Source: Oceanibacterium hippocampi
GTDB taxonomy: Bacteria > Pseudomonadota > Alphaproteobacteria > Sneathiellales > Sneathiellaceae
Assembly (NCBI RefSeq): GCF_900172325.1
Contig: NZ_FWFR01000003.1
Span: 310,001-374,000 of the forward strand
Reading direction: 5' to 3'
Length of the DNA: 64,000 nt
Shown: positions 10,848 through 64,000 of the stretch, piece by piece
How positions within the stretch are numbered: the first letter of the stretch is position 1
Layout of the letters: every line of letters begins with the position of its first letter
Position numbers and translations under genes: made by a program
The notes under the pieces: generated by a model
The model's database searches: none
Seen by the model: only the letters and a program-made list of their open reading frames with translations
What the model was told of the DNA's origin: nothing

Positions 10848-11301
10848 TTCCCGCCGGCCGCCTGAGCATCAAACCACCATCGGGAAATGCCGTTATCGGG
10901 GCCACGCCAGGGCCCGCCAGAGACTTCTGCCGTTCTTGCCCCGAGACCTAGGGGAAATCACTGTCTCTGTCCCGACAACGGGAAACGCCCCGCCGAAATC
11001 CCGCGGACTTCGGCGGGTTCCCGGCTCGCGGTCAGAGGACTGACACTTCTGGGGAATTAGTGGTGGTGCTTGCAGTCACGAGCGAACCCGTCTCACCCGT
11101 CGTCAGTGTGTTTACAGGGAAATACAGGGAATCCACCGCTCTTTCGGAGGAAGCTCCGCCAAATCGACCGAAATACATGCGTATTTTCAATGACATGGAG
11201 GCATTTCCCTGCGAGATGGAACAGGGAAACCTGATTGTGTGATCAGGGAGATCGGCCGCAATAAACAGGGAACTTGGTAAGCAATACAGGGAGCAGGACC
11301 A
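10848..11301 (+). repeat. Direct repeat, copy A (recombinase 3' flank)
   Basis: A 454-bp segment matching 23464-23919 in the same orientation. The first 200 bp align without gaps at a constant offset of 12616, with small indels after. It holds six CAGGGA hexamers between 11113 and 11292. In copy B the homologous sequence sits directly at the 3' end of a serine recombinase pseudogene; here no recombinase sequence lies upstream. The rest of the 780-bp gap (10679-11458) shows no gene I can support. Confidence 0.9.
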
Positions 11302-23463: not shown

Positions 23464-23919
23464 TTCCCGCCGGCCGCCTGTGCATCAGATCACCATCGGG
23501 ATATGCCGTTATCGGGGCCACGCCAGGGCCCGCCAGAGACTTCTGCCGTTCTTGCCCGGAGACCCGGCGAAAGGCGCCGTCTCTCTCCCGGCAACGGGAT
23601 ACTCCGCGCCGAAATCCCGCGGACTTCTGCGGGTTCCCGGCTTGCGGTCAGAGGACTGACACTTCTGGGGAATTAGTGGTGGTGCTTGCAGTCACGAGCG
23701 AACCCGTCTCACCCGCCACCAGCGCGTTAACAGGGAAAATACAGGGAATTCAGCGCTCTTTAAGGCACGATTAAGCGAGATAGGCCTGAATCCATACGCA
23801 TTTTCAATGACATGGAGGCGATTTCCCTGCGAGATGGAACAGGGAAACCTGATTGTATGATCAGGGAGATAGGCGGCAACAAACAGGGAACTGGGAAAGC
23901 AATACAGGGAGCAGGACCA
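23464..23919 (+). repeat. Direct repeat, copy B
   Basis: A 456-bp match to 10848-11301, same orientation, beginning exactly where the recombinase reading ends and finishing at GCAGGACCA. Contains six CAGGGA hexamers (23730-23910). With copy A it brackets 12.6 kb. Confidence 0.9.
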
Positions 23920-61062: not shown

Positions 61063-61344
61063 CAAAGCCCCGCCAACGAGACCCGAAAAACGCGTACTAC
61101 AATGAATCTTTGCGATAATGGGGCGATCTGCAACGGCGTGCTCGGCGTAGTGGAGATACTATCTCCCAGATCACGCGACACTGTGTGTCTGACCCCGCTC
61201 CCTGATCCGGGCCAATGGTTAGTAGAGGCTGTTCGCCTTTCTTTCCGGTTGGGCATAGGGGCTGATAGTCCGATATGCGGAGCCCTCACGCAGCTAAGGC
61301 CAGCCGGGCCGCTGGTTGCCGACCTGCTCGGCATGGGGCACTAG

Positions 61345-61690
61345 AGTCAGGCCGCCGAGGCGCCGAATGGGGATGCTCGACATTGTAATCGATACGCCAC
61401 ACTTCGACGAGGCACCGGGTCTCGTCGAGAAGGGGGAAAAGGTGCTCGTTGTTGCGCTCGTCTTAGAACCGTCCATTGAAAGAACCCTCAAAGGCGTTCT
61501 GGGAGAGCTTTGCAGGAGCTCCGTAAGCGGCGCGTTGTCCAGCAGGCTCTCTGCCATGCGGCGCTTCAGCTTGGCGTTTTCCCCTCCAGCGTGAGCAGGC
61601 GCTGCGCGTCCCACACCGTCATGCCGCCGAACTGTGCCTTGTGCTTGTAAAAGTTCGCATTCGAGATGCCGTACTTCTCCCGTCTGAATA
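61345..61690 (-). mobile_element. IS3-family transposase remnant with internal deletion
   Basis: OrfA part: REKYGISNANFYKHKAQFGG then, after a frameshift, ENAKLKRRMAESLLDNAPL. It is joined directly to the OrfB C-terminus: FEGSFNGRF, stop codon, then NEHLFPLLDETRCLVEVWRI. The middle of the transposase is deleted. No terminal inverted repeats recognised. The stretch 61063-61344 holds no gene I can support. Confidence 0.85.
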
Positions 61691-62008
61691 GGCACGCATA
61701 CACCGAATTATTCCGTCAAGACTCTTGCATGTCTGCAACCTCTGCGTTATGAATAGATTCTACATGATACCATGACGTGATAGACAGAACATTGCGGCTT
61801 CTGGCCCATCGAGATTTCTCTCGCGATCGAAGAGTGGTTGTATTCTTCAAAATAGAATCTTCACTATGCAAGAAGATCTCGCCATAGACGTCACAAGTTG
61901 TTGACACAATAGTGGAAAGTATATGACTTTATTTTTCCCTATTTTGGCAGTTAATTCATCTATTTTTTTCGGAAATTCGATGATTTACCAACATAAAGAT
62001 GAAACGAA
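61691..62008 (+). promoter_or_regulatory. AT-rich upstream region of the SIR2-HerA pair
   Basis: Markedly more AT-rich than the rest of the window. A TTGACA at 61901-61906 is followed by TATGAC about 15 nt later, a weak promoter candidate. Base composition fits a recently acquired defence cassette. Confidence 0.4.
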
Positions 62009-63283
62009 ATGCCAGAAATCGTTGAGGAAGGCGCAGCGAAGCGCACTTTTAGTTTCTTTCGTGGCGCCGAGATAGGCGTAGAAAATTACAAATGGCCGGA
62101 CGGCGCCGACAAGGCGAGACAAGCGATTGGCGAATCGCTGAATGCGCGGAATGTAGCCTTCCTCTTAGGCGCTGGCTGTTCTTCATCATGGCAAAACGGC
62201 CAGGAAGTCGGCGTCCCGACCATGGCACCACTTGCAGAGGAATTCACGAGGAAGCGGAAGGACGAAGATCAGTCCTTTCCAACAGCGATAGAGCGCAGCT
62301 TGCTCTTGCAGAAATTTGGGATCGACATCAGCGCCAAGGACTATTCGCGCAATCTCGAACGGCTTATGGAACTCCTGTTCAGTTTTCGCTTCAGCCTTGC
62401 TCGAAGTTCCTTAAAGGAGGCCAAAGCCGAACTCTCGACCATCAACTCGGTGATCAACAAGGTCAAACACTTCCTATGGAACAAGTGTACAGGCGGTGCA
62501 TTCGCCAAAGGCGACAACACCGTTATGGCACTTTACGAGTCATTTTACCGCAAGCTGGTGCTCCGCGATCGGTCATTGCCGAGGCCCTGGGTCTTCACGA
62601 CGAATTACGACCTGTTCAACGAGACGGCCATGGACCGGCTCGGCCTGCCGTATGCGAACGGTTTTTCCGGCGTCGTTGAGCGCCGTTTCAATCCGGCAAC
62701 GTTCCGGTACGCACTGGCCGAGCAGCTCGACGTGGCGAGCCGCAAATGGTCCGCGGTCGATGGGTTCGTATATCTCGGCAAGCTTCACGGATCGATCAGT
62801 TGGACTGAAGACGATCACGGGCTGTTTCCGATCCGGGAGATAGCGATTTCTCAGCCCCCCGGTAAGGTGATGATCTTTCCGACGCCCGCGAAGCAGAACT
62901 CCGCTCTGGGATCGCCTTATGCTGATCTATTCCGCGAGTTTCAGTCGCGCGTCGTGCGCGAGCAGAGCGTGCTATTTACGATAGGCTACGCCTTCGGCGA
63001 CGAGCATATCAACAACATCATCTATCAGGCACTGACTATCCCGACGTTCAGGCTCGTCATCTTCGCCGACCCGACGTTGCCGGGTGAAATCGCAAAACTT
63101 CGCGAGCTCAACGATCCACGGATATGGATTATTGGAGGGGACGGTCCGGATGTGGGCCGCAAAGCACATTATTTCGATACGGTCATCGAAGAGTTCATGC
63201 CGCAGCGCCCAAGCGAGCGAATCGACGACGCAGTGAAGAAGGTGCTGGATGCGATATCTTCAAAGAAGGCGGGAGAAGAATGA
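62009..63283 (+). CDS. SIR2-domain protein (anti-phage NADase)
   Basis: A 424-aa protein of the SIR2_2 class. LLGAGCSSSW (residues 52-61) binds NAD, FTTNYD (196-201) and KLHGSISW (258-265) give the Asn and His used for catalysis, and GYAFGDEHIN (326-335) closes the fold. Such proteins hydrolyse NAD+ in phage defence. A 4-bp ATGA overlap couples it to the HerA gene. In known SIR2-HerA systems the two proteins assemble into a large complex that depletes NAD+ during infection. Lower GC than neighbours suggests transfer. Confidence 0.92.
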   Translation: MPEIVEEGAAKRTFSFFRGAEIGVENYKWPDGADKARQAIGESLNARNVAFLLGAGCSSSWQNGQEVGVPTMAPLAEEFTRKRKDEDQSFPTAIERSLLLQKFGIDISAKDYSRNLERLMELLFSFRFSLARSSLKEAKAELSTINSVINKVKHFLWNKCTGGAFAKGDNTVMALYESFYRKLVLRDRSLPRPWVFTTNYDLFNETAMDRLGLPYANGFSGVVERRFNPATFRYALAEQLDVASRKWSAVDGFVYLGKLHGSISWTEDDHGLFPIREIAISQPPGKVMIFPTPAKQNSALGSPYADLFREFQSRVVREQSVLFTIGYAFGDEHINNIIYQALTIPTFRLVIFADPTLPGEIAKLRELNDPRIWIIGGDGPDVGRKAHYFDTVIEEFMPQRPSERIDDAVKKVLDAISSKKAGEE

Positions 63284-64000
63284 GCCGTGATGATCGAATG
63301 CGCGCTATCGGCAAGGTCGTATCTGTTGCGGCCGACAGGTTCGTCGTGGAAATGCACGCAGGCACCGACAACTTCACGGTCGTCGGGTTCGACGATGTGC
63401 ATTATGTGGCCCGGCTCGGATCCTTTCTCATGGTACCCATCCAAGCCGAGTATGTCGTGGTGGAAGTCGTCGGCTTGCACGAACGCGACATCGCCGGCCC
63501 TAGTCACGGTGATGGCGCGCTAGACAAGGCAGCGTCTGCGAAATATCTCGACGTCGTGCCTATCGGGATGCTGCCGCAGGATCGGAGCGAGAAGTTTCGA
63601 TTCGGCGTCTCCGTCTTCCCGTCACTCTACGCGGATGCCCTCTTCGCGCTTGATGCCGAACTCGATCGGGTATTCGAGACGGATGTTCCCGTCGAACCGG
63701 CGCCTGCGATGAACGATGTACTGCCGATACCGGCGGACGCGACGCGCTTCCGTGCCTTGACAATCGGCAAATCGGTTGTTTTCGAAGGCTATGACGTCAA
63801 GGTCCGGATAGATGATTTCTTCGGTGGCCACACGGCGGTCCTGGGCAACACCGGTAGCGGGAAGTCCTGCACCGTCGCCTCCGTGCTTCAGTCGTTGTTC
63901 GAGAAGGCGGATGAACACCATGCGCGCGGCGCTACGTTCGTCGTGTTCGACGTCAACGGCGAGTATGAGCAGGCCCTTTCGCGCCTGGCTAATGGCAACG
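63280..64000 (+). CDS. HerA-like ATPase, C-terminus beyond window
   Basis: The first 240 residues of a HerA/FtsK-type helicase or translocase. An N-terminal HAS-barrel-like beta domain (IGKVVSVAADRFVVEMHA), then Walker A LGNTGSGKS (about residues 188-196) and FVVFDVNGEYEQAL. The ATG overlaps the SIR2 stop, with GGGAGA just upstream. Hexameric HerA serves as the ATPase scaffold of SIR2-HerA defence. Walker B and sensor motifs lie outside the window. Confidence 0.92.
   Translation, partial: MSRDDRMRAIGKVVSVAADRFVVEMHAGTDNFTVVGFDDVHYVARLGSFLMVPIQAEYVVVEVVGLHERDIAGPSHGDGALDKAASAKYLDVVPIGMLPQDRSEKFRFGVSVFPSLYADALFALDAELDRVFETDVPVEPAPAMNDVLPIPADATRFRALTIGKSVVFEGYDVKVRIDDFFGGHTAVLGNTGSGKSCTVASVLQSLFEKADEHHARGATFVVFDVNGEYEQALSRLANGN

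Follow-up and report, generated by a model that had tools for sequence, protein, structure and literature searches.

The window, a stretch of 64,000 nucleotides from Oceanibacterium hippocampi (positions 310,001 to 374,000 of contig C7, genome G000), ends within a gene for a HerA-type ATPase that directly follows a gene for a SIR2-like protein. An earlier note on this DNA read the two genes as an active, acquired anti-phage pair and suggested that further defence genes might lie past position 64000. The locus raises the question of whether the pair is intact and mobile, and what accompanies it. The next 31 kb of the contig were also fetched, and the features on which the analysis turns are as follows.

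23626 to 23685, no strand: left boundary repeat of a 53-kb integrative element, from direct repeat comparison
61294 to 61695, minus strand: degraded remnant of an IS3-family transposase, lying ahead of the operon, recognized by DNA similarity
61700 to 62008, no strand: AT-rich leader before the SIR2 gene, probable promoter region
62009 to 63283, plus strand: gene for a SIR2-like NADase of 424 aa with catalytic N199 and H260, from profiles, motifs and alignment
63280 to 64000, plus strand: first 240 codons of the HerA-type ATPase gene, the rest lying beyond the edge
C7:375295-376188 (L002:9296-10189), beyond the window: gene for a DEDDh 3'-5' exonuclease of 297 aa, from Pfam, PADLOC and NCBIfam

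The SIR2-HerA pair and its integrative element

In a profile search, the SIR2 protein matched the PADLOC model PDLC04090 with an E value of 2e-222, and it matched Pfam SIR2_2 above the gathering score. Its NAD-site motifs are GAGCS at residue 54, FTTNYD with N199, and KLHGS with H260, and the last two line up with the same motifs of the solved SIR2 chain 8j4u. Counted along this alignment, N199 and H260 correspond to residues 168 and 227 of 8j4u. In Vibrio cholerae SIR2, substitution N168A or H227A leads to a loss of immunity, and both residues are stated to be conserved with E. coli SIR2 (PMC11559045). A failure of the Asn and His to align with catalytic residues had been named in advance as a refuting result; instead, N199 and H260 fall on the proven pair, and the key residues are unchanged across the sampled relatives. 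With a full-length ORF and its catalytic residues in place, the SIR2 gene is intact, and by homology its product is probably an active NADase.

The end of the SIR2 gene and the start of HerA at 63280 share a 4-bp ATGA overlap, so the proposed translational coupling of the two ORFs was borne out. The part of HerA inside the window already matched PADLOC PDLC04102 (4e-111) and Pfam DUF87 above the gathering score. In the extended contig the gene is complete (672 aa; L002:7281-9299, equal to C7:373280-375298, ending at window-equivalent position 65298), which rules out a truncation just past the edge. The full-length protein matched the same model at E = 2e-303 over residues 1 to 657 of 672, covering the profile nearly end to end. 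Walker A is intact, as the earlier note had claimed (GNTGSGKS at 189), as is Walker B (LLLEEAH at 516), and both are kept in the sampled relatives. Phage plaquing rises in V. cholerae lacking herA (PMC11559045). Profile, motif and synteny tests, with PADLOC models matching both genes, thus support the identification of a SIR2-HerA pair. It shares with the characterized SIR2-HerA (Nezha) systems of E. coli and V. cholerae A103 (PMC11559045) the Asn/His of a SIR2-like NADase, a complete HerA ATPase, and adjacent, coupled genes that are kept in relatives. The locus differs from them in being a diverged subfamily: its scores fell far short of the NCBIfam antiphage equivalog cut-offs (148 of 500 bits for SIR2 and 222 of 800 bits for HerA), which mark the characterized subfamily whereas the PADLOC models cover the whole class.

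The DNA ahead of the operon is AT rich, as had been noted, with a GC content of 0.43 at 61700-61899 falling to 0.29 at 61900-61999, against about 0.6 nearby. No sigma-70 consensus match above chance was found in this leader. The composition shift is present but modest (0.53 to 0.58 against about 0.62). Of the insertion sequence scar claimed upstream, the similarity to IS3-family transposase DNA held up over about 170 bp at 71 to 74% identity, but the ORF is a degraded fragment without a Pfam match. Further IS3 elements lie immediately downstream of the operon.

The locus is acquired, as the earlier note proposed. The boundary repeat of about 50 bp recurs at 11010-11069 and at C7:386585-386644 (window-equivalent end 76644), and the rightmost copy runs into the 3' end of a tRNA-Lys(CTT) gene (region C7:386585-386710). 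The 1.6 kb leading up to the second repeat share 92% identity with the 1.6 kb leading up to the third, and a serine recombinase gene adjoins the tRNA-Lys end of the array. Together, the repeats, the matching right ends and the recombinase place the operon in a mobile 53-kb element (23686-76644), the second in a tandem array. DNA beyond the tRNA-Lys gene is kept in relatives of the same family, while the island DNA is not, and this SIR2 gene occurs in only two of the 26 genomes sampled from the order. A phage-borne origin of the pair was considered and rejected, as a viral collection yielded only two relatives, at 50% and 27% identity; an exonuclease of the family described below was not detectable in either of them.

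A coupled DEDDh exonuclease gene

Past the window edge, the HerA stop and the start of the next gene again form an ATGA overlap, making this gene the third of the operon. Its product matched Pfam RNase_T (7.8e-21), a PADLOC DEDDh model (4e-33) and, over its full length, NCBIfam NF006615/PRK09182 with 415 bits against a cut-off of 207. The only annotation of that family is "3'-5' exonuclease". All five DEDDh residues are present and invariant in 20 proteins (D48, E50, D137, H186 and D191 in the numbering of the homologue L006). A structure predicted from 19 homologues, with L006 as the first sequence (pLDDT 88.6, pTM 0.82), matched the folds of the DinG exonuclease domain, PolC, ExoX, DnaQ, RNase T and TREX1, and the protein has a small extra C-terminal alpha/beta region with a conserved LK-R-YRW motif. 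In eight pairs the dN/dS ratio was 0.05 to 0.18, similar to that of SIR2 and HerA, and the exonuclease is thus under purifying selection.

HerA-NurA and HerA-DUF4297 systems likewise encode a HerA ATPase with a DNA nuclease. Here, however, HerA has SIR2 as its core partner, and the nuclease belongs to the unrelated DEDDh exonucleases, so that identity with either system was ruled out. SIR2-HerA itself is already known; what is new is the coupled DEDDh exonuclease as a third gene. In the open literature that we searched, which contains no preprints and few subscription journals, we found no description of the three-gene form or of an exonuclease common to it and Gabija, no defence link for PRK09182/NF006615, and nothing on HerA with DnaQ.

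The expectation of further defence-type genes past position 64000 proved correct, both for the exonuclease and for an AbiV-like HEPN gene (L002:14278-15354, minus strand; Pfam 2.7e-33) that lies in the same element, about 4 kb beyond the operon. Two small operons adjoin the AbiV gene (L002:12468-14109 and L002:16228-17276). They are candidates for island genes of an uncharacterised kind; the proteins tested gave no Pfam or NCBIfam match and one weak PADLOC reverse transcriptase match.

We then scanned 84,980 species genomes for SIR2 and retrieved 71 relatives with flanks, nearly all of which have HerA after SIR2. Among 57 usable HerA rows, the exonuclease lies downstream in 25 (one copy, in L032, is broken) and upstream in one; it is absent from 29, and two sequences end too soon. 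In three further or distant loci it stands ahead of SIR2. The coupling is conserved: in all 21 intact junctions measured, the exonuclease starts between −8 and +2 bp from the HerA stop. The hosts span several alphaproteobacterial orders, including Hyphomicrobiales families, sphingomonads, Acetobacteraceae and Paracoccaceae. Of 387 sampled genomes of the class, only 20 have a member of the exonuclease family, yet three of the four HerA genes of the type found here carry a coupled copy, and the fourth genome has one on another contig. Given the rarity of the family, these counts make chance adjacency negligible.

About half of the related loci have no exonuclease, which excludes it as a universal partner and indicates that the pair can do without it. 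On the HerA tree, its presence requires nine changes, seven of them forced by well-supported branches, and the exonuclease tree disagrees with the HerA tree in places, with some partners regrouped (for example, L015/L016). The exonuclease has therefore been gained, lost or exchanged repeatedly.

Two further groups of SIR2 loci carry other nucleases. In eight distant loci (L066, L069-L071, L073-L075 and L175), most of which have HerA after SIR2, a gene for a TM0106-type RecB/RNase H-like nuclease (TIGR03491, 9e-65) overlaps or adjoins SIR2 on its upstream side; this is another nuclease recruited to the pair. Eight genomes of different genera (L007-L013 and L024) hold near-identical SIR2-HerA genes with a PD-(D/E)XK protein at a 4-bp overlap and, where the contig reaches far enough, an upstream AbiE pair and a UvrD/AddA-like helicase-nuclease. 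These loci reflect the recent spread of one mobile unit.

Relatives of the exonuclease in other settings

Relatives of the exonuclease (54 to 60% identity) are encoded just upstream of Gabija genes in four alphaproteobacterial plasmid loci, L078, L079, L081 and L140. Profile matches identify GajA in L078 and L081 and GajB in L078; the Gabija genes of L079 and L140 were assigned by tblastn. The two gammaproteobacterial plasmids examined with the same GajA type have no such exonuclease upstream. A GajA search in the class genomes gave no match, so the Gabija link is confined to plasmid records. The core genes of Gabija are unrelated to SIR2-HerA, and neither GajA nor GajB is present at the O. 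hippocampi locus, which rules out that identity.

In the exonuclease tree, one clade of 31 rows (support 97/94) unites the copies linked to SIR2-HerA with those linked to Gabija, and the latter form a single clade within it (100/99). The only two other members of the larger clade, L077 and L150, both stand behind a DinB-type polymerase. In the Caulobacter plasmid L077 (2877-4894) the exonuclease gene is directly behind an annotated dinB, and in L150 (5026-7025), whose DNA is related to L077, the ORF upstream looks like DinB by eye. Such coupling suggests that some members may act in repair. Other members of the family stand alone or in plain plasmid contexts, and these, with the dinB-linked copies, make a general role in DNA maintenance possible. 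Yet others are encoded by large Rhizobium phages, where the annotation reads Pol III epsilon.

We tentatively extend these observations to a wider proposal, which we hold slightly less probable than its converse: that the PRK09182 DEDDh subclade serves two or more unrelated defence systems of Alphaproteobacteria, including SIR2-HerA and Gabija, as a portable third component, and that SIR2-HerA has repeatedly recruited different accessory nucleases (DEDDh; the TM0106 RecB/RNase H-like type in the distant clade; an AddAB-like type in one mobile element).

Proposed mechanism and its alternatives

Taken together, the locus is best read as a three-gene version of the SIR2-HerA (Nezha-type) anti-phage systems that is intact and was acquired horizontally, with the exonuclease as an optional, DNA-degrading accessory; we give this reading a probability of about 0.7. 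The characterized assembly contains 12 SIR2 and 6 HerA subunits and hydrolyses NAD+ on infection, and protection needs both proteins (PMC11559045). By analogy with the E. coli and Vibrio relatives, SIR2 and HerA of O. hippocampi would probably form a large complex that hydrolyses NAD+ on infection and so stops the cell. HerA would most likely be the DNA-engaging hub, as its homology suggests. The exonuclease most likely serves as an accessory that would degrade phage DNA from 3' ends, either fed or positioned by HerA or working alongside it. Because close relatives manage without it, it is not a core sensor in this reading.

The main alternative, to which we assign roughly one chance in four, is an ordinary two-gene SIR2-HerA system with a coupled passenger, an exonuclease that has its own DNA-maintenance job and is kept in place by mobile elements. 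The loci that lack the gene would fit this view, as would the stand-alone, dinB-coupled and phage-borne members of the family and the tree conflicts, which point to swapping. A passenger, however, would not readily explain why the gene starts no more than 8 bp from where HerA stops at every intact junction measured, why gain or loss has repeatedly affected the same place, why its clade is nearly confined to SIR2-HerA and Gabija neighbours, or why purifying selection on it resembles that on its partners. Still less probable is a role as a brake or self-protection factor, in which the exonuclease would clear away oligonucleotides or DNA ends able to set off HerA/SIR2 in the absence of infection, thereby limiting NAD loss or helping recovery. 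DEDDh enzymes do include TREX1 and other DNA-clearing nucleases, and an optional gene accompanying two different DNA-acting systems would suit such a role, but close relatives without the exonuclease persist. Decay of the locus into an inactive island remnant, for which the IS3 fragment upstream and the IS3 elements downstream might speak, is very improbable given three full-length ORFs, intact catalytic residues and low dN/dS against relatives.

SIR2-HerA complexes have been reported with NADase, helicase and nuclease activities, and operons with and without the exonuclease form a natural set in which to test how the task is divided between NAD loss and DNA destruction. If the wider proposal holds, recruited nucleases would join NAD depletion with dedicated DNA destruction, and if the exonuclease is common to SIR2-HerA and Gabija, it would count as a modular accessory to defence, one overlooked by detection models built on two genes.
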